Below, one piece after another: positions 3,198 through 62,968 of a stretch of DNA of 64,000 nucleotides (its first letter is position 1; every line of letters starts with the position of its first letter). The notes under the pieces were generated by a model that worked only from the letters and a program-made list of their open reading frames with translations, was not told where the DNA came from and did not search any database. Location: contig NC_083524.1 of the NCBI RefSeq assembly GCF_032362555.1, forward strand, positions 8,418,001-8,482,000, written 5' to 3'. Source of the DNA: Amyelois transitella (taxonomy: Eukaryota > Arthropoda > Insecta > Lepidoptera > Pyralidae). Both the position numbers and the translations under genes were made by a program.

Positions 3198-3395
3198 GAC
3201 GAACGTATCTTGATGAAATTAAGGACGTCCTGGTAAAGGGTCAGGTCAAAAGTACCCGAAAACGCCGAGCTTGCATGAAAAGACTTATGAATGTGGATGA
3301 AGCGAAGGAAGTATGATCGAGATCGTGGCAAATGGAAAGAGGTAGTCTCTGCCTACCCCTCCGGGAAAGAGGCGTGATTTTATGTATGTATGTAT
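3198..3395 (+). repeat. LINE-R 3' end
   Basis: DEIKDVLVKGQVKSTRKRR, then MKRLMNVDEAKEV, a frame break, and the SAYPSGKEA stop with a (TATG)n tail. Confidence 0.75.
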
Positions 3396-5036: not shown

Positions 5037-5080
5037 TATTTGAATAGAAGTATTTGTGTACACTAATTTAAATATTTGTG

Positions 5081-5490
5081 TCGTAAAACGAGACTAAGGG
5101 ATAGGCTTACAAACTTGCGATTCTTTTTTAGGCGATAGGCTATCAATCTATCACTTTTTGAATCTCAACTCTATCATTAAGCCTAGCTGAACGTGGCCAT
5201 TCACGTCTTTTCAAGACTATTGGCCCTGTCTACCCCGCAAGGGATATAGACGTGACCATATGTATGTATGTAATTTAAATATTTGCGTCGTAAAAGGCGA
5301 CTAAGGGATAGGCTTACAAACTTGCGATTCTTTTTTAGGCGATGGGCTATCAATTTGTCACTATTTGAATCTCAAATCTATCATTAAGCCAAATAGCTGA
5401 ACGTGCCCATTCACGTCTTTTCAAGACTGTCGGCTCTGTCTACCCCTCAAGGGATATAGACGTGACGTATATATATATATATGTATGTGT
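5081..5490 (+). repeat. two tandem head-truncated SINE-A copies
   Basis: Copies at 5081-5270 and 5287-5490 share the same left junction (AATTTAAATATTTG, GTCGTAAAA) and the same order, so the pair arose by local tandem duplication. The second ends in a (TA)n run. Confidence 0.8.
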
Positions 5491-7623: not shown

Positions 7624-8027
7624 TCAGCATTTCCCATGAATGTCGTAAATGGCGACTAAGGGATGGGCTGGGATTCTTATTTTAGGACTAAGGGATAGGC
7701 ATACAAACTTGGGATTCTTTTTTAGGCGATGGGGTAGCAACCTGTCACTATTTGAATCAATCAATCAATTCTATCAATAAGCCAAATAGCTGAACGTGGC
7801 CATTCCGTCTTTTCAGGACTATTGGGTCTGTCTACCCCGCAAGGGATATAGACGTGACCATATATATATGTATGTCTTATTTTAGGCGATATGCTAGCAA
7901 CCTGTCACTATTTGAGTCTCAATTCTGACATTAATCCAAACAGCTGAACGTGGCCAATCAATATTTTCAAGACTGTTGGCTCTGTCTACCCCGCAAGGGA
8001 TAAAGACGTGATTATATGTATGTATGC
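7624..8027 (+). repeat. SINE-A array, internally duplicated
   Basis: A first copy (7624-7878) repeats the ACTAAGGGAT..GGGATTCTT segment inside itself. A second, head-truncated copy (7879-8027) joins at the TATG tail. Confidence 0.7.
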
Positions 8028-17850: not shown

Positions 17851-18432
17851 ATACATACATACATGTAATCACGTCCTAATCCTTTACTGGGTAGACAGAG
17901 ACAACGGACGTAAAGGCCATGTTCAGCTGTATGGCTTAACTAGTTTTTACTTGCAGTGAATTTAGCGCCAACTACAAAAAGTTACTAATTTAACGCAAAC
18001 TACAAAAGAATACCAAATTATTCGTTGGGTAAATTATTTTAAGTTGGGATGATGTCAAGAATAGTTGCTAACCCATCGCCTAAAATATCAATACATACAT
18101 ATGGTCACGTCTATATCCCTTGCGGGGTAGACAGAGCCAACAGTTTTGACAAGACTGAATGACCACGTTCAGCTATTTGGCTTAATGATAGAATTGAGAA
18201 TTGCGATACAAATAGTGACAGGTTGCTAGCCCATCGCCTAAAATATTAATACATACATACTTACATATGGTCACGTCTATATCCCTTGCGGGGTAGACAG
18301 AGCCAACAGTCTTGAAAAGACTGAATGCCCACGTTCAGCTAATTTGCTTAATAATAGAATTGAGATTCTAATAGTGACAGGTTGCTAGCCCATCGCCTTA
18401 AAAAAGAATCCCAAGTTTGTAAGCCTATCCTA
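17851..18432 (-). repeat. array of three SINE-A 3' parts
   Basis: Copies at about 17851-18088 (split by an unrelated insert at 17945-18060), 18090-18246 and 18248-18432. The first two stop at CGCCTAAAATAT and are followed at once by the next (CATA)n tail. A tandem amplification rather than independent insertions. Confidence 0.75.
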
Positions 18433-44270: not shown

Positions 44271-46476
44271 ACCCCATGTAATTAAGAGTTTGGAGAAGGA
44301 CATAGGTGACCTAGTAAAAACTATACTTCCCATGGCATTTGCGAAAAACCTGTAGACTTTTGTAGGTGGCGCTAAATTCGTTGCTTTTTTGTAAGTGGCG
44401 CTAAATTCGTTGCTTTCAGTATGTTGGTGCTAAATTCACACAGGCGAAGCTGCGGTTAAAAGCTAGTATTTATATAAATTACAGGAGAACATAGTAAACG
44501 AGAGGACGCACCTGTTAGAGGTGGCGGAACAACAGCAGGAGGCGGCGCCACCGTCGTCGTCAGCGTCGACGCCGCCCCGCAAGCCCGACGAGCAAAATGT
44601 ACTCAGTAGGATATTGCATGAGACTGCCACGTGAGTACATATATCGTGTCTTTATCGGTGTAGGAGCAACAGATTTAAATATATTGAGAGGCCATGTTCA
44701 GCTTAGAAGCTGATGGAATTGAGATTTAAATAGTGAAAGGTAACTAGTCCATCGCCTTAAAAAAAAATACCAAGTTTATTAGCCTTTCCCTTTTCTTTCG
44801 TCATAACGCCTATATTTGGGATAAGTAGGCAGCGACTACATCTTTCCACTTGCCACGATCTCTGCATACCTCTTTCGCTTTATTTTATACTTATTTAAGC
44901 TATTATATAAAGAAACCTATATTGATTAACTGTTAAAGCAGAGCTCCTTGTAGCTGTAACTTTAAGAGCAAAATAAAGGCTTTATTATATAATTGAGGAC
45001 GCCCGCGACCTGTCCGCGTGGAATATCTCAAGAACTCCGGGATAAATTCCTATGTAACACATAGGCTACTTTTGGGTTTTCAGCTACCTACATACCAACC
45101 ACTTCATCGCTATCGGTTCAGTAGTATTTGCGTGAAAGAGTAACAAACATCCACACATACAAACTCACAAACTTTCGCATTTATAATATTCATGAATTAA
45201 TAGGGTTTGTTGTACAATTGCAGTAACGTGATCGACGTGGGCGCACTGGGCCCGTACGCGCTGGAGCCGGGCGCGTACAGCGAGCGCGTGCGCGCGTACA
45301 CGGCGCGCGCGGCGGGGGCGGGCGCGGCCGCCGCGCGCGCGCGCCTGCTGGCCGACGTGCCGCTGGCAGAGAGGAACGCGCTGCTCAGCAGGCCCGGCCT
45401 TACTGCTGAAGATAAGGATTTAGTGAGTATATATTCTCAATGCATGGGTAAACTCACAGGATGCCATCGGAGTGTTTTGCGATCTGACCAAAGCATTTGA
45501 TTGCGTAGATCATAGAACTCTTCTGCTCAAGCTTGCTAATTACGGGTTCGACACTACTGCCGTTGAACTAATTAAATCATATCTTAGTGATAGATTACAG
45601 ATGGTAGATTTTAATAATACAAAATCGAAAGGAGCGAAGGTAAAAATTGGGGTACCGCAGGGTTCCATTTTGGGACCTTTTCTGGTTTATATTAACGAGC
45701 TGTCTTACATGATTGAGAAACAGACTGGCATTGTATGTTTGCAGATGATAAGTCACTAACTAAAATTAAGATGAACCGCCGTAGCGAAATCAGTGATGAT
45801 GTAAATAGCATTTTAGCCGCCATTTCTAACTGGTTTACAATCAACAACTTACTGTTAAATGCAAATAATACCCAATGCATTAATTTTACACTTCCCAATG
45901 TGCGGCAGGCAAATGTCCATATTAGTAAGTAGTAAAAGATTAGATTTTGTTGATAGTAGGTACTACTTTTTTAGGAATAAAATTAGATATTTGAAATGGC
46001 ATGCTCATATTTAGAAACTTTCTAAAGGCTCAGTTCTGCAGCATATGCTATTCGTCGTGTATTAGGCATTTGACGGATGTGGCAACTGCTAAGCTAGTAT
46101 ATTTTAGTTATTTTCATTGTTTAATGTCTTATGGTCTATTGCTTTGGGGATCAGCAGCAGACATGCAAACTATTTTAATTCTAAAAAAAGGGCAATTCAA
46201 GCTATCTGCGGATATTTACTATAACAGTAAATATAGAATAGATTTATTATTCATATGGTTGCCGGTTGAAATAGAAAACGAAGAAAATGCTCCAGTGCTG
46301 TTTGTTACCGCTTCTTCTGCACTGACGCTTTGGAATAAACATAAATAAAAAATAGATACTGACAAGCAATCTTTCCATTGCAGATATCAAATGCCGTTAA
46401 AAAAGCAGCCGCTGCCATATCAGAGTTGCGTGTGGAGCATCACGAGGATTTGGTGGTGCCGTTCAGAGTGCCATAG
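42626..46476 (+). CDS. LAMTOR1: LAMTOR1 (p18), Ragulator membrane anchor, four exons
   Basis: Lipid-anchored scaffold that holds the Ragulator complex on late endosomes/lysosomes, where it recruits Rag GTPases and mTORC1. Exons: 42626-42670, 44485-44630, 45224-45422, 46384-46476. All junctions are GT..AG and the phases join (0, 2, 0) to give 160 residues, against 161 in the human protein. It begins MGCCYS, so Gly2 is the myristoylation site and Cys3/Cys4 the palmitoylation sites. Exon 2 carries RTHLLE and the conserved DEQNVLSRILHETA stretch. Exon 3 opens with NVIDVGA. Exon 4 has ISELRVEHHEDLVVPFRVP, the family C-terminus. Exon 3 is extremely GC-rich with an Ala/Arg-rich insertion. Intron 3 holds a decayed LINE and intron 2 a Helitron remnant. 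Start chosen because the family needs MGCC at the N-terminus. Confidence 0.95.
43120..43240 (+). repeat. SINE-A, very worn
   Basis: AAGGACCACTCTATCTCTGC, CATGGATCTCATAAATGGCG and AGGTTACTAACCCAT in LAMTOR1 intron 1. Confidence 0.55.
43630..43716 (+). repeat. LINE 3' end, CCTGGGCTCCTCT family
   Basis: TACCCTGGGCTCCTCTTCAG, GTAGTGAGGTTGCAACGGGA and AGGAGGAAGAAGAG. A second copy is at 57075-57150. Confidence 0.6.
43768..43870 (+). repeat. SINE-B 3' part
   Basis: GTCTTGGATGTTTATCTATA, GTATCGTTAAGTTAGTATC and a worn 3' stem. Confidence 0.6.
43988..44268 (+). mobile_element. SINE-B, full length, with 58-base A run
   Basis: Head with intact A and B boxes, body and stem. At TGTGTAATTTGTC it runs into 58 uninterrupted A residues (44211-44268). 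Other copies continue with CCGTATATAT instead. It lies in LAMTOR1 intron 1. Confidence 0.85.
44685..44800 (-). repeat. SINE-A fragment
   Basis: GGCCATGTTCAGCTTAGAAG to AGCCTTTCCC in LAMTOR1 intron 2. Confidence 0.55.
44808..44885 (-). repeat. LINE-R 3' end in LAMTOR1 intron 2
   Basis: GTAGGCAGCGACTAC and CCACTTGCCACGATCTCTGC match the LINE-R terminus on the minus strand. Confidence 0.6.
44995..45190 (-). repeat. Helitron-like element, left end lost
   Basis: GACGCCCGCGACCTGTCCGC, CGGTTCAGTAGTATTTGCGT and TTTCGCATTTATAATATT. Same family as 14086 and 58454. Confidence 0.6.
45440..46350 (+). pseudogene. decayed LINE reverse transcriptase in LAMTOR1 intron 3
   Basis: Frame-shifted remains of a non-LTR reverse transcriptase of Jockey/CR1 type: FCDLTKAFDCVDHRTLLLKL (domain with catalytic Asp), VPQGSILGPFLVYINEL, then, after a frame break at about 45735, FADDKSL in place of the usual FADD box, and C-terminal YFSYFHCLMSYGLLLWGS. 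It is 5'-truncated and starts within the reverse transcriptase. The 3' end carries the TACCGCTTCTTCTGCACTGA tail motif also found at 12290 and 28210. Confidence 0.85.
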
Positions 46477-46497
46477 CAGAGACACAACCGAGTAAGT

Positions 46498-46760
46498 ACA
46501 TACATACATATAATCACGTCTATATCCCTTGCGGGGTAGACAGAGCCAACAGTCTTCATAAGACTGATAGGCTACGGTCAGCTGTTTGGCTTAATGATAG
46601 AATTGTGATTCAAATAGTGACAGGTTGCTAGTACATCGCCTTAAAGAAGAGTCCCAGGTTTGTAAGCCTATCCATTAGTCGCTTTTTACGACATCCATAG
46701 GAACGAGATGCGAGTGATCCTATTCCCCTTTTTTTATTAGTACCGGGAACCACACGGCAC
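46498..46760 (-). mobile_element. SINE-A, full length, with target-site duplication
   Basis: Complete element just after the LAMTOR1 stop codon. It is flanked by the 11-base direct repeat ACCGAGTAAGT (46487-46497 and 46761-46771), showing insertion by target-primed copying. In element orientation it starts GTGCCGTGTGGTTCCCGG and ends with the tail ACGTGATTATATGTATG. It carries a small hairpin (AGTCTT..AAGACT) about 60 bp before the tail. Confidence 0.9.
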
Positions 46761-46771
46761 ACCGAGTAAGT

Positions 46772-52123: not shown

Positions 52124-55100
52124 ATGTCCGTGTTCGATGGAGAGATAGAATTCCGTTCTGTGTACATGGTTGACTATGCCAGGAAAAATAAACCGTAAGT
52201 TTCACGAGGAGTCGGAACCCACCAAAACCACACGGTGTTAAAATCTCGCGTTCTTGTGCCTTGTGCATTGTGAGGATGTGGTGATAAAAATTTAAAAGAG
52301 TATGTTGAGATGGTTCGGTCATGTGGAGAGGACGATTGAAAACAGGTTGACTAAGCAGATATACATGGAGAGTGTGGAGGGAAAGGTCGCAGTGGGAAGA
52401 CCTAGACGAACGTATGTTGATCAAATTAAGGACGTCCTGGTAAAGGGTCAGGTCAAGAGTACCCGAAACCGCCGAGTTTGCATGAAGAGAGTTATGAATG
52501 TGGATGAAGCGAAGGAAATATGCAGAGATCGTGGCAAGTGGAAAGAGGTAGTCTCTGCCTACCCCTCCGGGAAAGAGGCGTGATTTTATGTATGTATGTA
52601 TGTATGTGCCGTGTGGTTTCCGGCACCAATACAAAAAAGAATAGGACCACTCCATCTCTTCCCATGGATGTCGTAAAAGCCGACTAAGGGGTAGGCTTAT
52701 AAACTTGGGATTCTTCTTTTAGGCGATGGGCTAGCAACCTGTCACTATTTGAATCTCAATCCTATCTTAAAGCCAAATAGCTGAACGTGGCCTATCAGTC
52801 TTTAGGCTCTGTCTACCCCGCAAGGGATATAGACCTGATTGTATGTATGTATGTTGAGATGGTTTGGACATGTCGAGAGAATGGATGAGGACAGACTAAC
52901 GAAAGGTATTCATAAGGCAGAGCTGACTAAAAGTGGGACAGGGCCGGCCTCGTCGAACTTTCAAAAATACATACATACATACATATGGTCACGTATATAT
53001 CGCTTGCGGGGTAGACAGAGCCAACAGTCTTGAAAAGACTGAATGGCCACGTTCAGCTATTTGGCTTAACGATAGAATTGAGATTCAAATAGTGACAGGT
53101 TGCTAGCCCATCGCCTAAAAAAAGAATCCCAAGTTTGTAAGTGAACGGGCCGAGGGTCTATTTGTCTAGTCAGAATAAAAAAGAATTTTCCCGTTCAAGA
53201 TAAGAACCGTGTTTATCCCTTTATAGATGTTGACCGTAGCTTCGCCCGCGTGAAACTGAAACTCCCGATAAAACGTTAACGAGGGGGTATTTGCCAAATA
53301 CTTATCATCAAAATCGGTATAGGTGGAGTTTGAGTTTTATGGTTACAAACAATAAAAAATCTTTATTTTATTTTATTTGTACATACATACATACATACAT
53401 ACATATGGTCACGTATATATCGCTTGCGGGGTAGACAGAGCCAACAGTCTTGAAAAGACTGAATGGCCACGTTCAGCTATTTGGCTTAACGATAGAATTG
53501 AGATTCAAATAGTGACAGGTTGCTAGCCCATCGCCTAAAAAAAGAATCCCAAGTTTGTAAGTGAACGGGCCGAGGGTCTATTTGTCTAGTCAGAATAAAA
53601 AAGAATTTTCCCGTTCAAGATACGTCTTGTCGTCTCGTCGTCTTATGGTCGTCTCTTTAGTGTCCAAGTCGATTGTCCTTTTTTTCACAGTCTGTCAGTC
53701 GGTTTTAGTCATCTAAATTTGTCAAGTCAGAGTCTCGTTTGTCCATGGAGGCTGAACGGCCGCTACAGTAAGCCTATCCCTTAGTCGCTTTTTACGACAT
53801 CCATGGGAAAGAGATGGAGTGGTTCTATTATTTTTTATTGGTACCGGGAGCCACACGGATGAACTTTCAAAGATCAAATTTTGAATGTCTTGAAAACTGT
53901 TACTGTTTTATATTTGGAATGTACTCCTTTAGTAAACAATAAAGCATTTCCTTGCTTATGATCTCTTGATGAATGTTTTGCAGCAAAAGTCCCCGTCGAA
54001 AGGCCAAAGATGACGATTGTCTCATAGTTGGACTCAGCAGGGATGCCCTCAAAGCCAAGGACGTCCCTAGAAGATGTCCAGACGTACTCTGCCCGATTGA
54101 CCATGAGTATTATAAGGAGGCCGTCAAACGAGTAAGTTTAATCTTTTTCGTTTTGTTTTAGGAATAAACTCGATATCGTTTATAAGCCTATCCCATAGTC
54201 GCCTTTTAAGACATCCATAGGTAAGAGATGGATTGGTCCTATTCTTTTTTGTATTAGTCCCGGGAACCACACGGATTTTTGCGCGATAAAAACGGCATCA
54301 CCGACACTCGCGACACCGTACTGTTGGATTGTATAAGTCAGATCAACTTGACCTCCTATAATTTGACTTCACCTATCATAACTGCGAGGAACTCGATGAT
54401 ACAAACTCCCATCAAAAGTATGTACATTTGATGGGAGTTTGTAAGTACAAACATGTCTACATAAAATCACGCCTCTTTCCCGGAGGGGTAGGCAGAGAAT
54501 GCCTCTTTCCTTTTTCGTTTGGTTTTAGGAATAAACTCGATATCACAAACATGTGATATCGATGTGTGCCGTGTGGTTTCCAGCATTAATGAAGAAAAAC
54601 ATAGCACCACTTTATCTTTCTTTTCTTTGGGCGATGGGCTATCAACCTGTCACTATTTGAATCTCAATTCTATCGTTAAGTCAAACAGTTGAACGTGGCC
54701 TTTAAGTTTTTTGCTGACTGTTGGCTCTGTCTACCCCGGGAAGGGATTGATTTAATGTTATTATTTTTCACGGTAATTATCACAAACATAAGAACCGTGT
54801 TTATCCCTTTATAGATGTTGACCGTAGCTTCGCCCGCGTGAAACTGAAACTCCCGATAAAACGTTAACGAGGGGGTATTTGCCAAATACTTATCATCAAA
54901 ATCGGTATAGGTGGAGTTTGAGTTTTATGGTTACAAACAATAAAAAATCTTTATTTTATTTTATTTGGATTTATGATTATAATATTAGTATAATGGGGGA
55001 TGAAGGCGACAGTCGAGAATCAAAGGTCTCATTCAGCTAGAACGCTTAGGAAATGACAGGTTCAGATTCAGATAGTTTCAGATTTCTAAAATGATGGGAT

Positions 55101-56741
55101 TCATTACAAAGTTTAGGATTGATTGATTTTCACAAAGTACGCGCAGAAGCTAGATATACTGTTTTTTAACATGTTCTGTAAGTACTTGAACAAATTCTAA
55201 ATGTTACTAATGCCAAGAATAGTTTGCAGAAGACTATCCGAAGTTGACGAAGATGTACATGTCCAAAGAACTGGACCCCACGCCCATTGAACATGAAATC
55301 CAGGACTTAAAGAGGACAGAGTATTTGACCAAGTATTGTTCGAGAGGTACATACATAGATATAGTCACGTCTATATCCCTTAGGGGGTAGACAGAGCCAA
55401 TAGTCCCGAAAAGACTGAATGGCCACGTTCAGCTGCTCGGCTTAATGATGGAATTGAGATCCAAATAGTGACAGGTTGCTAGCCCATCGCCTAAGAAAAG
55501 AATCACAAGTATGTAAGCCTATCCCTTAGTCGCCTTTTTCGACATCCATCGAAAAGAAATGGAGTGGTCCTATTCTTTTTTGTATTGGTGCCGGGAACCA
55601 CACGGCTTTCTAGAGGTATCCTGTTTTGTATATTGTTAAATACAAACGTAGTTTTTGTGCTCACGACTATGACATTACCGAAAGTCCTCTTAAAAAAAGA
55701 GGATGTTTTCAAATTCCCTCAATTCCCTTTCCTCTTGAAAGAAGAAGACAAGATGAGAATTGAGGGAATTTAATAACATCCTTTTTTTAGAGGACTTTTC
55801 GTAATGTCATATCCTAAGGCCCTGACCTCCTATACTTTGACATCACCTATCATCACTGCAAGAAACTCCTATCAAAAGTAATGTGCTCTCTCCAGAACTA
55901 CCGTTCATGTCCGTGAATTTGACTCGCCGCGCCCGAGCCCTACAAACCTTGCGTCTGCCTGACGACATCGAGATACCTGACACCACTCAGAAGGGCTCCT
56001 ACCGTCCGCCCAGGCCGGAGAAATACGCTGAACCGCCGTCCGCCATGTCTCTGAGACCGAAATATGATCCTTCATTGACGCGTAAGTGATTTGTTGTTCT
56101 TCATCTCATATACATATAGTCACGGTTACGCCACTTGCGTGGATACAGAGCTAAAAGACTGATAGGCCACATTCAGCTGTTTGGCTTAATGATAGAATTG
56201 AGATTCAAATAGTGAGAGGTTCCTAGCCAATCACCCAAAATAACAGAATTCCAAGTTTATAAGCCTATCCCTTAGTCGCCTTTTACGACATCCATGGGAA
56301 AAAGATGGAGTGGTTCTATTGGTGCCGGGAACCACACGTTCTACTAATCAGCCGGAAGAAATTCGCCACAAAGGAAGCAGATTTTTCCGTATTTGTAAAA
56401 CAGTTCGTCGGTAAAATTAGTGTGTGTTTTACTTAACAGTATTTTGTTTTATTATACCTTAGTCGCCTATTACGATAACTATGGGCTATATATGGAGAGG
56501 TCCTTTTCTAAAGTGCCAGTAACCACACGGCAGTAGGTTATAAAGCCATTATCTCCTTATGTCAATTTCAGAACAACTTAGGCGCATCCAGCGTATAAGA
56601 ACCGGCGACACCACTTACCAAGCGTGTCACAGCCTCCTCGCCAGGGTGATTCTGGACCAGAAACCCTTTGGCCCGCCCCGGGAAGAACCTGGTTACGGCA
56701 GATGGCTTAACCCCTATACCTATACTTACAGGATCAATTAA
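52124..56741 (+). CDS. unrecognised 232-residue protein, five exons
   Basis: Exons: 52124-52194, 53984-54131, 55223-55346, 55896-56081, 56572-56741. Phases are 2, 0, 1, 1 and every join keeps the frame. The protein begins MSVFDGEIEFRSVYMVDYAR. It has a Lys/Arg-rich stretch (residues 21-31), two Cys in RRCPDVLCPIDHEYY (exon 2), an acidic-basic mixed segment in exon 3 (KELDPTPIEHEIQDLKR), a Pro-rich segment in exon 4 (GSYRPPRPEKYAEPP) and a Tyr-rich end NPYTYTYRIN. No signal peptide or membrane segment is evident. I do not recognise the family. Exon 3's acceptor (AG at 55221-55222) has a poor pyrimidine tract and was chosen because it is the one that keeps frame. A candidate extra exon lies at 54290-54417. 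Introns are packed with SINE-A copies. A polyadenylation signal is at 57280. Confidence 0.75.
52300..52605 (+). pseudogene. LINE-R 3' end (RTE-like), longest clean copy
   Basis: Encodes the last 93 codons of an endonuclease/reverse-transcriptase polyprotein: LRWFGHVERTIENRLTKQIY, GRPRRTYVDQIKDVLVKGQ, MKRVMNVDEAKEICRDRGKW, ending SAYPSGKEA and TGA. The microsatellite tail TTTTATGTATG starts directly at the stop codon, so there is almost no 3' untranslated region, as is typical of RTE-clade elements. It begins abruptly (5'-truncated) and its tail is directly joined to a SINE-A copy. Confidence 0.8.
52606..52854 (+). mobile_element. SINE-A, full length, joined to LINE-R on both sides
   Basis: Head follows directly on the (TATG)n tail of the LINE-R copy at 52300-52605, and its own (TATG)n tail runs straight into another LINE-R fragment. 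Confidence 0.85.
52853..52935 (+). repeat. LINE-R internal fragment
   Basis: Encodes LRWFGHVERMDEDRLTKGIH. It begins exactly where the (TATG)n tail of the preceding SINE-A ends. Confidence 0.65.
52965..53202 (-). repeat. SINE-A 3' part plus left end of the MITE-like element
   Basis: Identical to 53385-53622 at an offset of exactly 420 bp. The copy stops at TTCAAGATA, where the 177-bp repeat begins. Confidence 0.85.
53203..53379 (-). repeat. 177-bp repeat, copy 1
   Basis: AGAACCGTGTTTATCCCTTT, GACCGTAGCTTCGCCCGCGT, AATCTTTATTTTATTTTATT. Identical as far as I can compare with 54791-54967. On the minus strand it begins with an AAATA-rich tail, like a LINE 3' end. Confidence 0.8.
53385..53859 (-). 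repeat. SINE-A interrupted by the MITE-like element
   Basis: SINE-A parts 53385-53561 and 53768-53859 are separated by the insert at 53562-53767. The head is complete (GTACCGGGAGCCACACGG). Confidence 0.8.
53562..53767. mobile_element. 206-bp MITE-like element
   Basis: Inserted in a SINE-A with a 5-base target duplication GTAAG (53557-53561 and 53768-53772). Ends TGAACGGGCCG and, reversed, TGTAGCGGCCG match at 8 of 11 positions. No coding. A partial copy is at 24053-24180 and a left-end copy at 53142-53202. Confidence 0.65.
53906..53962 (+). repeat. LINE 3' tip
   Basis: GGAATGTACTCCTTTAGTAA and AATAAAGCATTTCCTTGC, as at 4610. It lies 20 bp before exon 2 of the 232-residue gene. Confidence 0.5.
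54180..54275 (-). repeat. SINE-A 5' part
   Basis: TATAAGCCTATCCCATAGTC to CCGGGAACCACACGG. Confidence 0.75.
54290..54417 (+). CDS. coding-like segment in intron 2 of the 232-residue gene
   Basis: Open frame beginning DKNGITDTRDTVLLDCISQ, then INLTSYNLTSPIITARN, with a possible donor at 54418 (AAAA then GTATGT) leaving phase 1. That is compatible with joining to exon 4 at 55896. No acceptor is visible because a SINE-A copy abuts its left side. A second copy of its right half lies at 55822-55880, just before exon 4, and most differences between the copies are synonymous. It could be an alternative or decayed exon. Confidence 0.35.
54455..54512 (-). repeat. LINE-R 3' tip
   Basis: AAAATCACGCCTCTTTCCCG and GGGGTAGGCAGAGA on the minus strand. 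Confidence 0.6.
54566..54750 (+). repeat. SINE-A, diverged, with deletion
   Basis: GTGCCGTGTGGTTTCCAGC to GTCTACCCCGGGAAGGGA. Confidence 0.7.
54791..54967 (-). repeat. 177-bp repeat, copy 2
   Basis: Same sequence as 53203-53379, 1588 bp away. Confidence 0.8.
55350..55607 (-). mobile_element. SINE-A, full length, inserted at an exon-intron junction
   Basis: Flanked by TTCGAGAGGTA (55339-55349) and TTCTAGAGGTA (55608-55618). The duplicated target contains the 5' splice site of exon 3 of the 232-residue gene. Confidence 0.88.
55667..55812. repeat. foldback element with ~56-bp inverted arms
   Basis: TATGACATTACCGAAAGTCC, GAGGATGTTTTCAAATTCCC on the left are mirrored by GGGAATTTAATAACATCC and GGACTTTTCGTAATGTCATA on the right. 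The loop is ~30 bp. Probably a small DNA-transposon remnant in intron 3. Confidence 0.7.
56108..56337 (-). repeat. SINE-A, full length, diverged
   Basis: ATATAGTCACGGTTACGCC to GGTGCCGGGAACCACACG. Confidence 0.75.
56458..56532 (-). repeat. SINE-A head
   Basis: CTTAGTCGCCTATTACGA to AGTGCCAGTAACCACACGGC. It ends about 40 bp before exon 5. Confidence 0.7.
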
Positions 56742-56844
56742 TATCAATTAAATCATAGTCCTCGCCTCTTTGGATAGGAGCCCAGGGTTCGCCTTTTTTT
56801 AATGTAGCCACGGGTGCGCACATGTCCAGCCTTAGTAGTAGAGA

Positions 56845-57050
56845 CGGCCTTTGCGCAGGCGCAGCGGTAGTGCGCTTGTCTGTGACACCGGAAGTCCCGG
56901 GTTCGAATCCCGGCCAGGGCATGATGGGAAACGAACTTTCTCTGATTGGCCTGGGTCTTGGATGTTTATCTATATAAGTATTTTTTTATAAAATATAGTA
57001 TCGTTGAGTTAGCTATCTGTGTAATTTGTCTCGTATATATTATATTATAT
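56845..57050 (+). mobile_element. SINE-B, full length
   Basis: Head with a 9-base insertion before the A box (CAGGCGCAGCGGTAGTGCGC), an intact B box and a shortened 3' stem. Lies in the probable 3' untranslated region of the 232-residue gene. Confidence 0.8.
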
Positions 57051-57074
57051 ACCTTATAGGATTTAGATGGTTCA

Positions 57075-57150
57075 AATGTATACCCTGGGCTCCTCTCCAG
57101 AGTGGTGAGGATGCAACCGGGACTAAGGTCAGGAGGAAGAAGACCTAATA
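57075..57150 (+). repeat. LINE 3' end, CCTGGGCTCCTCT family
   Basis: TACCCTGGGCTCCTCTCCAG, GAGGATGCAACCGGGACTAA and AGGAGGAAGAAGACC. Confidence 0.6.
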
Positions 57151-57279
57151 GGATTTAAATATGTCGATTTTGTTTATAATAAGGTTTATACATAATCACG
57201 TTGTTTACTTTTGAGTTAGTTATGATGTTATTATAATTAGTAATTTTTATATCTAAATATTCGTTTATCACATTTTTGG

Positions 57280-57285
57280 AATAAA
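57280..57285 (+). terminator. polyadenylation signal AATAAA for the 232-residue gene
   Basis: AATAAA 540 bp after the stop codon, followed by a T/G-rich stretch. The 3' untranslated region would include a SINE-B copy. Confidence 0.5.
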
Positions 57286-57389
57286 ATTGTTTTCTTAAGG
57301 CAGTTGTTTATTTGTTTCATCATAAAAATAACGTTTTTTTTATATTAAACCCGTGAAAAAAACCTGTTATTAACATGTTACTGGAGATG

Positions 57390-57770
57390 GCAAATAGAGA
57401 CACAATTTTACGTTATAAATGCGGAAGTAACTCGGTATGTCTGTTACGCCTTTACTACTAAACCGATTTTGTTGAAATTTGGTACAGAGATAAATTTGAC
57501 CCTGAGGAAGATAAAGGTTAATTTTGATTGCGAAAAAAGATATCTCGCGAACGAAGTCGCGTTTACACTGTTATTGTTTATCCACACTAATCAAAAAGAG
57601 ATGTGTAAGTAGTTTTGTATGTTTGGAACGAATAAACTCAAAAACTCCTGAAGCGATTTTAATGTTATAATTATGTTCTATTCTACCTGTAAGTACATTA
57701 TAAGGCAATTTTTTTTCTGGAAATTTCCACGGGAGCGAGATCCCGCGAAATAAGCTAGTTACGAGTATTA
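57390..57770 (+). repeat. Helitron-like remnants
   Basis: ACTAAACCGATTTTGTTGAA and CGAACGAAGTCGCG near 57460-57560, then CGGGAGCGAGATCCCGCG and AAGCTAG before T at 57757. Confidence 0.5.
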
Positions 57771-57887
57771 TACCTGAAATCAAGTTGGGAATCACAGATT
57801 AAAAAAGATTACTTAAAAATTTAAATCTATAATGTCATCTACAATGTAAGAACGATTACTAAAGAAAAAGATTTGACTATGCAGAAT

Positions 57888-58080
57888 GTCGTAAAAGGCG
57901 ACTAAGTGATAGACTTATAACCTTGGGATTCTTCTTTAAGGAGATGGGCTAGCACTATTTGAATCTCAATTCTATCATTAAGCCAAACAGCCGAACGTGG
58001 TCTTGCAGTCTTTTCAAGACTGTTGGCTCTGTCTCCCCGCAAGGGATATGTACGTGATTATATGTACCTACGTATGTATA
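57888..58080 (+). repeat. SINE-A, head truncated
   Basis: ATGTCGTAAAAGGCGACTAA to a degraded tail, upstream of the 253-residue gene. Confidence 0.75.
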
Positions 58081-58279
58081 TAGAATGTTAGAATTCACCG
58101 TCAAATCAGTTTGACAATCTAAGATGCCATGCGATGTCAATTCTCAAGTCATTAGCCTGTCAAAATTGATCAAAATAACATGCTATAACTTTACCGTTTC
58201 AAACGAATAATGTGAAAAAAAATTGGCAGTTCATATCAAAATTTTCAGTGGTGATGCGGAGACTTGGTTCTCTTGAAAC

Positions 58280-61200
58280 ATGGATCATTATTTGACGACG
58301 TACAGAAAGGACTACCTATGGCCCAATCTGCCCGGAGCGGGGGGAGGAGGCGCCGCCACCGGAATAGGGGGGATGGCCGAGTATGTGAACATACTACTGT
58401 ATTTTTGAATAAAAATAACTATAATGAAGAGATGATGAGATGAGAATATGATACTAGAGGCCGCCCGCGACTTCGTCCGCATGGAAACCCTATCAATCCC
58501 TCAGGAACTCCGGGATTAAAAGTAGCCTATATGTTATTCTGGGTCTTCAGCTGCCTACATACCAAATTTCATCGTAATCGGTTCAGTAGTTTTTTGGTGA
58601 AAGAGTTACAAACATCCATACTGACATACAAACTTTAGCATTTATAATATTAGTAGGATTATTATGTACTCTCATAACTGCTGTACACAGGACTCCAAAA
58701 CTATCTGGTGAAGAGTTAGCGTTCTACCAAGCGTGTATGCAGCACTCACGCCCCCCAGATTGCAGGTGTCCACAGTACTCTGGTGGGGAGATGCCGCAGC
58801 TGCCTCCGGGGAAAGAAGGCGGTTGGAGTAGGAACGAGGTAGCTAAACCTGATGTTCCAGCCCTTCGATAATATCAGGCTCTGTCAATCCCGTAAGAAAT
58901 ATGGACGTGATACTCGTATGTGTGAACTCAGTAGGAACGAGGTAGCTATTCTTCTTGAGTTACATACATACATATGGTCACGTCTATATTCCTTGCGGGG
59001 TAGACAGAGACATAGTCTTGAAAAGACTGTATGGCCACGTTCAGCTATTTGGCTTAATGATAGAATTGAGATTAAAATAATGACAGGTTGCTAACCCATC
59101 GCCTACAAAAGGAGCCCAAGTTTGTAAGCCTATCCCTTAGTCGCCTTTTACGACATCCATGGGAAAGAGATGGAGTGGTACTATTCTTTTTTGTATTGGT
59201 GCCGGGAACCACACGGCACTTCACGTTTATGACCATATATTGGTTTCTGTCGTCTTTGGAGACCTGTCTGCGACTTTTGACCATGGACCTGAATTGGGTA
59301 AATCTAGTTTCTACGCCTGACGAAGAGTTGGCGTTCTACTCTACTCAGTTTTCTGTCTTTTTCTTCCTTGTGGCGTTAGACCTGTAAACATCAAAATGTC
59401 TCTGGATAGGATCCAAGGGTGTGGTCTTTGACCATGATCCTAGATTGGGGTTTCTACACGAAGAGACTCCACGCGAAGAGTTGGCGTACTGACAAGGTTT
59501 TTTTTATTTCTCGTTACCTTTCTTTGGACCTGGATATCCTTACAGCTTTTTCTCGCGATGTTTTACCCCAACGTAAGATATAATTAAGAGATAAGTATTA
59601 CTTAGTAATTTTGCATAGATCGTGGCAAGTGGAAAGAGGTAGTCTCTGCCTACCCCTCCGGGAAAGGCGTGATTTTATGTATGTATGTATGTTGTAATTT
59701 TCACGAAACATATTGTAAAAAAACTTTATCATTTAACAACAATTTGACAAACTTTATTGTATAATTTTAATTGTCGGTTACATGTCTAAAAATTACATTT
59801 GTTTATTATTTAAGTAACACCAATATTATAATAAGCTAAAACTACTTATAAAAAGTAAGAAAAAAGATGACTACAAACTAAAATTTAATTTACAAATTGT
59901 ACAGTCCCTGCGTAGCATCAACATGCGGGAGTGTGCCTAGAAAGCTGGCAGCATTGCCAATTTGAATGTTATTGTTATTTTTAGATCATGGGACCCTTGT
60001 TGGATCCGAAGTTATACCCGGTACGTGTGGGAGCTGCCCCTGAGACACCCACCTCGCGATATGATCAGCCTAATGCGTTCTTGGACAAGGTAAACACAAT
60101 TTTTTAAAGTAACTTTTGAAAAGAAGAACAGCGTCCAATCGATATATCTCCTAATTTTTTGAAGTAGGTTAATTTTCTAAAAACTTTTCAGCGAAACGCT
60201 AGATAATCGCGGACAAATATACACATAGATATATATACATAAAAACAAACTTACTTATATGTATGTACATACGAACATACACACATACAGGTCAAACTGA
60301 GAACCACCTTTTTTGAGGGCGTTTAAAAATAAAAATCGAGGAAAAAGAAAACTGTTTTCCTCATTTTTTTATTATACCTACGCTTGTAATTATACATACA
60401 CAGATTTGAGTTAGAACTCTAACTTCGAATTGAGACAATATTCCTGTATTCTGTAGTGCAAAACCACATATTTTTCTTCAGGTAGGTCTACCTAGTTCTC
60501 TAGCTTTCTACCTATTCTGTTTTTTTTTTTATCAAACAAAATTTTATCAAATCTCGCCAAAAATTTACCGAAATCCCTTAATTAGTTCGATACGATTTTA
60601 TTTTTGCACAAATATAATGACAACTCACATACATATGTATGTAGGTACCTATGCCATCAGCTGTGGACAATTTAAAACGTTCTTCCTTCAAACTTTGTTT
60701 CAGCTTCAATCAAAATATCCGATGCTGTACAGCATCCTACAAAACGAGGCGTCCCCGGAATTGAAACAAAGGATTGACAGGGATCGTAATAAAACTACGT
60801 ACCAAGTGGACTATTGCGAGAGCGGTAAGTTAATTTTATCGTTTACATACATACATACATATGGTCTTATTGCGAGAGCGGTAAGTTAATTTTATCGTTT
60901 ACATACATACATACATATGGTCTTATTGCGAAAGCGGTAAGTTAATTTTATAATATCGTTTTGTACAAACATACATATACGTCTATAACCCTTGCGGGGT
61001 AGACAGAGCAAACAGTCTTGAAAGAAAGATTGAATGGCCACGTTCAGCTGTTTGGCTTAATGATAGAATTGAGATTCAAATAGTGACAGGTTGCTAGCCC
61101 ATCGCCTAAAAAAGAATCCCAAGTTTGTAAGCCTCTGTTTGTAAGACTCTGTCTACCCCGCAGGGGATATCCCATGAGCCAACAGTCAACTGAGCCAGAG

Positions 61201-62604: not shown

Positions 62605-62968
62605 TCATGTCGGCGACCTAGCGCTAGAAATCAACTCTCCTCTTTTGTAGAGCGTGGCGCCTTCTCTCTTCGTTTCATCTCTTCTGGAGTTCTGCTCCTC
62701 TCGTCTGTGGGTGTGTTCCTCTCTCCTAGAGTTCTGTTCCTCTCTCCTGTGGGTGTGTTCCTCTCTTCTAGAGTTCTGTTCCTCTCTCCTGTGGGTGTGT
62801 TCCTCTCTTCTGGAGTTCTGTTCCTCTCTCCTGTGGGTCTGTTCCTCTCGTCTGGCGTGGTCTTCTCTTCTGTGAATCTGTTCCTGACGGTTGGACCGTC
62901 TCGCAGCTGTGTTGTTCTCGTCGTGCTGGCGGAGCACCACTGCTCGGGCGTCCGATGTGTTGCGTTCT
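62605..62968 (-). other. open minus-strand frame with 14-residue Arg/Glu repeat; possible exon
   Basis: Reading leftward, a good 3' splice site (ctaatttcag) ends at 62969 and is followed by an open frame with ERNTSDARAVVLRQHDENN, then about four copies of HTHRREEQNSRREE-type units, and a TGA at 62605. The repeat is the 42-bp minisatellite. Because 42 is a multiple of three, plus-strand frames are open too, so openness alone is weak evidence. No upstream exon was identified. Confidence 0.25.
62685..62880. repeat. 42-bp minisatellite, about 4.5 units
   Basis: Units start with GTGGGTGTGTTCCTCTC at 62707, 62749, 62791 and (as GTGGGTCTG) 62833. Each unit holds two ~21-bp half units with CTCTCYTCTRGAGTTCTG. 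It is GC-richer than the flanks and has a strong C/T versus G/A strand bias. Confidence 0.9.

Follow-up and report, generated by a model that had tools for sequence, protein, structure and literature searches.

The SINE-A copies beside 5′ splice sites in the window (the whole 64,000-nucleotide stretch analysed, G000:C20:8418001-8482000, in a genome of 327 Mb and 33 contigs that we read as lepidopteran from its repeat type) are best explained, at a probability that we put at roughly 0.57, by survivable placement in short introns, with a target-site duplication (TSD) that at times copies the donor. The features on which this reading is built are the repeats, the TSDs, AT-rich targets, an excess of elements on the donor side in other genes, and short residual introns. 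According to this reading, (i) SINE-A would enter AT-rich sites by target-primed reverse transcription and leave TSDs of about 8-16 bp; (ii) insertions in exons or in the branch point and acceptor region would mostly be lost; (iii) in short ancestral introns, the strip just past the donor would be the main tolerated place, where SINE-A and LINE copies would pile up; (iv) a close landing, as in case 1 below, would give a TSD covering the donor, so that a functional donor stays with the exon and the spare goes to the far side; and (v) separate small tandem duplications would add donor copies, as in case 3. Selection may thus be the cause of the donor-side placement. The preliminary description of this DNA had proposed that only insertions that restored a donor survived in exons. 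The survival part of that proposal agrees with the recurrence of donor-side tails in unrelated genes and with host introns that are short when repeats are removed, but the word "restored" fits case 1 and perhaps case 2, and does not fit the pattern at large.

The three cases lie in two neighbouring anonymous genes, g232 and g253, for which nine donors in all had been described, and both gene models read through. The frame and splice check gave g232 5 exons and 232 codons and g253 6 exons and 253 codons, each with an intact frame and GT-AG introns. Neither protein had a Pfam match up to an E value of 1, and comparison with the PDB returned nothing convincing for g232 or g253 (best E values of 0.8 and 0.11). 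A third gene, which we take to be LAMTOR1 from its sequence alone, adds three donors to the window set.

Case 1 is an ordinary antisense insertion, in agreement with the earlier account of a full SINE-A copy bracketed by a donor-bearing repeat. Exon 3 of g232 (55223..55346, plus strand; frame and splice check) has its donor after TTCGAGAG. The exon-side TSD copy, TTCGAGAG|GTA (55339..55349, plus), is followed by a full-length antisense SINE-A (55350..55606, minus; 92% to the consensus by alignment) and by the intron-side TSD copy, TTCTAGAG|GTA (55608..55618, plus). The TSD is 11 bp long and covers the donor, and its two copies, TTCGAGAGGTA at 55339 and TTCTAGAGGTA at 55608, are identical at 10 of 11 positions, with one mismatch. 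When exon 3 is prolonged to the intron-side donor copy, it runs into in-frame stops; therefore, the exon-side donor is presumably the one used. In the same gene, another antisense SINE-A in the window SINE map begins at +29 of intron 4 (56110..56338, minus). Separately, about 33 nt just past the exon-2 donor of g232 (54148-54180) recur about 360 nt downstream (54507-54540) around SINE-A pieces.

In case 2, at exon 2 of g253, the exon-side repeat copy (58827..58845, plus) carries the donor GAG|GTAGCT at 58839 and the intron-side copy (58930..58948, plus) repeats it; the two copies of AGTAGGAACGAGGTAGCTA, at 58827 and 58930, are identical at 19 of 19 positions. Between them lies an 84-nt sense insert (58846..58929, plus), which appears from its alignment and from a second genomic copy to be the tail of a divergent element. 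Insert nucleotides 32-79 (48 nt) match the SINE-A end at 78%, with a local score of 41 against a shuffle maximum of 23, and the first 30 nt have no SINE-A likeness above chance (424 of 500 shuffled sequences score at least as high). The second copy, on another contig (C29:2115249), covers insert nucleotides 3-67 at 89%, and the insert thus probably represents a divergent element in its own right. The exact donor-spanning repeat had been correctly described, but the insert that had been taken for a SINE-A 3′ tip is SINE-A-like only in nucleotides 32-79 of its 84. A repeat that spans the exon-intron junction takes the form of a TSD in case 1 and of a 19-bp repeat around a relative in case 2. As judged from the reading frame, use of the downstream donor in case 2 would add in-frame stops. 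The same intron also holds a full antisense SINE-A (58963..59218, minus; consensus alignment), for which no TSD was found.

Case 3, at exon 4 of g253, has a different origin. The donor is present three times, as had been noted (60825, 60881, and 60937), but the copies were made by a 56-bp tandem duplication of donor and tail, not by SINE insertions. Tandem Repeats Finder reports a single array (60812..60951, plus) with a period of 56, 2.5 copies, and 98% matches, comprising the exon-4 end, the donor, and SINE-A tail; the repeated unit extends from the exon end to a point within the tail of an antisense SINE-A. The first two units agree at 56 of 56 nt; in the third copy, the sequence is GCGAAAGCGG. 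Independent SINE insertions, considered as a candidate origin, were excluded because of the tandem duplication with its identical first two units; an insertion would moreover need a 33-nt TSD, compared with TSDs of 8-20 nt found elsewhere, the 20-nt one being largely tail repeat. The likely source of the duplicated tail is an antisense SINE-A just downstream (60966..61134, minus; consensus positions 88-258 by alignment). Use of the second donor copy would add 56 nt and shift the reading frame, and use of the third would add in-frame stops. On reading-frame grounds, the exon-side donor would be the one in use. Cases 1 to 3 are a local cluster of two different processes. Elsewhere in the genome, a kinesin exon end, its donor, and the following (ACAT)n run form a tandem triplication much like case 3 (L089, C2:12292010-12292470).

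LAMTOR1 carries two further antisense copies. A full SINE-A after its stop codon (46499..46759, minus; consensus alignment) is flanked on both sides by ACCGAGTAAGT, identical at 11 of 11 positions (copy 1 at 46487..46497 and copy 2 at 46761..46771, both plus). The duplication that had been described here is therefore present, but it begins 10 nt past the stop codon, in the 3′ untranslated region, and is donor-like by its sequence. At the start of LAMTOR1 intron 2 (44631..44792, plus), the donor GTGAGT is followed at once by the tail of an antisense SINE-A (44636-44792, 74% identity). A LINE reverse-transcriptase-like open stretch, named by eye, begins soon past the exon-3 donor of this gene (45430-46340).

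The preliminary description had also suggested a nicking enzyme that prefers GAG/GTA-like targets, which the insertion sites make very improbable. In the window, the tail junctions of the 63 copies that have a 3′ end are AT-rich and reveal no motif. GAG does occur within the last 7 nt of 5 of these 63 junctions by our own reading, compared with about 3.4 expected at window composition by our own arithmetic. Among copies with an intact end from the window and from genome loci (141, of which 140 were scored), 35 of 140 had a TSD at a score of at least 8, compared with 1.4 expected by mismatched pairing. Short TSDs of this kind are expected of a LINE-mobilised SINE that moves by target-primed reverse transcription. 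The first bases of the 35 TSDs lean T, A, A, A, and a donor motif is absent from their profile as from that of the 63 junctions. The enrichment of donor-like sequence among SINE-A TSDs that had been proposed did not appear in these 35: the empty sites reached a donor score of at least 6 in 5 instances, compared with 3.0 at random positions (P 0.16), with a scoring matrix typed from a donor consensus. In addition, the offsets from donor to tail junction differ among cases 1-3, and both orientations occur.

A reading that we consider unlikely, although less so than the other alternatives, is that the cases are a coincidence of a very SINE-dense stretch and a reader who was looking at splice sites. 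SINE-A covers 13,270 of the 64,000 window bases (21%) in 89 pieces, compared with 4.9% of 20 random 10-kb regions (range 0 to 19%). A window permutation that kept each intron's SINE content, and in which the ends of LAMTOR1 exons 1 and 2 were placed 2 nt too far, gave 3 elements within 30 nt of a donor where 1.4 were expected (P 0.10-0.14) and 5 within 50 nt where 2.2 were expected (P 0.03), so that the window taken alone spans P values of 0.03-0.14. SINE-A lay within 30 nt of none of the 12 window acceptors and within 50 nt of 2. In all of these counts, the acceptor ends of two LAMTOR1 introns are off by one, intron 2 being 1 nt too short and intron 3 being 1 nt too long. Against coincidence, the donor-side placement recurs on other contigs, in genes for kinesins and myosins.

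For these genes, 40 kinesin and 56 myosin donors were sampled, each being the best-scoring GT near the end of a profile match; the choice is visibly poor at L065, L083, L149, and L170, and L065 was dropped, which left 95 donors (39 of the 40 kinesin loci). An antisense element starts within about +21 at 7 of the 95, namely 4 SINE-A (L090, L097, L100, and L157) and 3 LINE (L073, L160, and L145), where the aligned part of L145 begins at +40 and its tail was read back by eye to about +17. When the donors were scored by a fixed signature, namely a CATACATA run anywhere in +1..+30, 6 of the 95 were positive against 0.46 expected from random regions; the myosin distances in this count were measured from the profile end and not from the donor, and at one of the six positives (L159) the repeat stands alone, with another SINE after it. 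The corresponding sense-tail count, 0 of 95, controls for the repeat only, as the tail of a sense element would lie on the far side. An antisense SINE-A or LINE tail close to about 6-7% of the 95 sampled donors can be taken as a rough rate. On the acceptor side, SINE-A lay within 30 nt of the acceptor at none of 20 loci examined, where two copies stop about 36 to 38 nt short of the AG by our own count, and at none of 10 further loci, where the nearest lies 32 nt from the profile start. A sense LINE tail at L119 ends about 20 nt before the acceptor, so acceptors are not wholly free of such elements.

Copying of the donor is the rarer part of this pattern. In the kinesin loci long enough to reveal them, the TSDs of donor-side elements start at +2 (L090 and L097) or +3 (L073), just short of the junction, and none of the TSDs at sampled donors contained the exon-intron junction (kinesin loci, the myosin windows being too short for TSDs); thus, TSDs that copy the donor are less common than insertions on the donor side. 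Repeats of at least 10 nt that span the donor within 90 nt occurred at 3 of 95 donors (exact repeats without SINE-A of 15 nt at L085, 33 nt at L128, and 12 nt at L177) and at 2 of 156 control positions deeper in kinesin introns; L089 has a donor-spanning repeat within 420 nt. Since such repeats are about as frequent at the controls, these data do not mark out the duplication of a donor in itself as special, which fits the coincidence reading.

The preferred reading, survivable placement, draws on the size of the host introns. In a short intron, an insertion that spares the donor, the branch point, and the acceptor has room only beside the donor. The window introns with donor-side insertions have repeat-free lengths of 142, 214, 138, 55, and 517 nt, the last being the long residual intron 2 of g253 (case 2). 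The kinesin locus L090 reads exon|GTAAGAATAACAT, antisense SINE-A, TAAGAATAACAT again, and then the remaining intron; this intron is 332 nt long, and 55 nt with its own donor and acceptor are left when the element and one TSD are removed. The same locus bears on an introner-like origin, in which SINE insertion created the introns and the TSD supplied the splice sites. The TSD of case 1 does hold AG|GT at the exon side, but the element does not account for the whole length of the introns, and SINE-A as a creator of introns was dismissed on the complete 55-nt intron that L090 keeps without the element; of all the explanations considered, this is the least probable.

In a geometric model of first insertions, which barred 2 nt next to the donor and 40 nt next to the acceptor, 8 donor-side first insertions were observed and 4.15 were expected (P 0.022); without the acceptor exclusion, 2.87 were expected (P 0.003). 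Three of the intron lengths entered were guessed and several were approximate, L090 was entered as 75 nt, and the window count of 4 includes cases 2 and 3, which were placed by hand. A test of relative position (KS P 0.0005) makes the skew look stronger than it is, since its four kinesin introns included three that had been chosen as donor-side. Geometry explains much of the donor-side skew, not clearly all of it, and leaves a modest, roughly two-fold excess.

This excess could instead reflect a hot spot, in which the LINE machinery would cut the coding strand within a few bases downstream of 5′ splice sites more often than at other places, perhaps where that strand is exposed by transcription, and so leave antisense tails beside donors. 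Such a hot spot seems to us rather improbable, and a real integration bias past 5′ splice sites, possibly co-transcriptional, with placement reflecting integration as well as survival, slightly more so. Besides the two-fold excess after geometric correction, the orientation of the elements speaks for it, since, within about +21, antisense elements begin at 7 of the 95 sampled donors and a sense element at 1 (L145 by eye). The sense elements near sampled donors are LINEs at +19 (L125), +26 (L147), and +38 (L175) and a SINE-A at +35 (L080), so that sense copies join as the range widens to +50 (7 antisense and 4 sense in the sampled genes). When the window and the sample are combined, the counts within +21 are 10 antisense and 2 sense, compared with 5 and 6 further into kinesin introns (P 0.07). 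A preference for antisense copies near donors is thus suggested but not established. The sense SINE-A consensus has an acceptor-like ATTCTTCTTTTAG before GCG, which might drive the loss of sense copies.

The hot spot also finds no sequence preference in the junctions or TSDs. A genome-wide hexamer test was applied to copies with an intact tail end that match an exact tail pattern; older copies escape this pattern, and the L090, L097, and L100 sequences do not match it. GTAAGT occurred 480 times at 0-30 nt before the tail against 397 times at 100-130 nt, AGGTAAGT occurred 36 times, and ACTTAC occurred 1113 times, 62 of the 100 among the matches listed overlapping the tail itself. Position bins were drawn from 77 of the 100 GTAAGT matches listed and from all 100 ACTTAC matches listed. 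Scaled from these, the 9-20 nt bin holds about 168 GTAAGT (27 of 77) and about 134 ACTTAC (12 of 100). The GTAAGT figure, scaled to 480, amounts to about 14.0 per position near these well-kept tails, compared with 12.8 per position at 100-130 nt. No clear donor-specific hexamer peak was seen genome-wide beyond the tail-adjacent bases, where ACTTAC rises too.

Survivable placement has a counterpart in mammals. In human and mouse (PMC3088655), transposable elements (TEs) very near exons are far rarer at acceptors than at donors, an asymmetry that is explained there by a donor signal of about 6 bp and an acceptor signal of 20-50 bp, and most TE classes have an antisense bias near exons. The elements described here likewise lie more often on the donor side than on the acceptor side, and the same reasoning would apply. 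In contrast to mammals, where TEs near exons are under-represented overall (PMC3088655), donor-adjacent tails are more frequent here than in random regions, with an antisense bias that is suggested and not proven. Canine merle offers a single-locus comparison, in which a reverse-orientation SINE lies at the boundary of a PMEL exon and its 15-bp TSD falls on the splice site (PMC7349775). That splice site is an acceptor, and the merle SINE interferes with splicing and causes a phenotype, whereas the insertions described here sit at donors and are apparently tolerated. Among the open-access articles listed on splice donors, TSDs, and lepidopteran SINEs, no title or opening abstract described donor-adjacent SINE clustering in an insect. 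Donor-side SINE tolerance is probably an insect instance of a known principle, with a modest unexplained excess. It provides a definite way for short introns in insects to lengthen at the 5′ edge, with a spare donor acquired from time to time. If young insertions share the bias, transcription- or splicing-linked targeting would be indicated; if they do not, the pattern would be an insect example of the mammalian tolerance rule.

Three window stretches, at 3337, 52543, and 59634, match SINE-A consensus positions 201-258 at 78% and have the same (ATGT)n tail in which SINE-A ends; we take them to be LINE 3′ ends. SINE-A was most likely moved by a LINE that shares its 3′ end. No RNA polymerase III head (tRNA, 5S, or 7SL) was matched by Rfam in 58940-59260 at E values up to 1, a search that a degenerate head could escape. 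Exact-pattern searches of collections of viral contigs and genome contigs found no SINE-A relatives, and literature searches with SINE-A sequence strings found no match. HaSE1 (PMC3272025) and PxSE5 (PMC8010984) share a 3′ end with a LINE, and an (ATGT)n tail is reported for SfSE1 and PxLINE1.1 (PMC8010984). PMC3272025 gives HaSE1 TSDs of 5-18 bp, describes HaSE3 as well, and has HaSE1 and HaSE2 without exon copies in that study. We liken SINE-A to HaSE1, HaSE3, PxSE5, and SfSE1 by these features, and assign it to no family (PMC3272025, PMC8010984).

Other repeats in the window were also observed. Head-to-tail SINE-A pairs or arrays lie at 5064-5485, 7630-8026, and 18091-18430, two of them with short common flanks between the copies; tandem duplication with one end in the tail may be recurrent. 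Two near-identical 5′-truncated antisense SINE-A copies (52966-53200 and 53383-53622) run into the same non-SINE sequence, and this pair is a composite or duplicated element. Finally, a 42-bp tandem repeat of 4.3 copies (62674-62855) lies within open frames of both strands.
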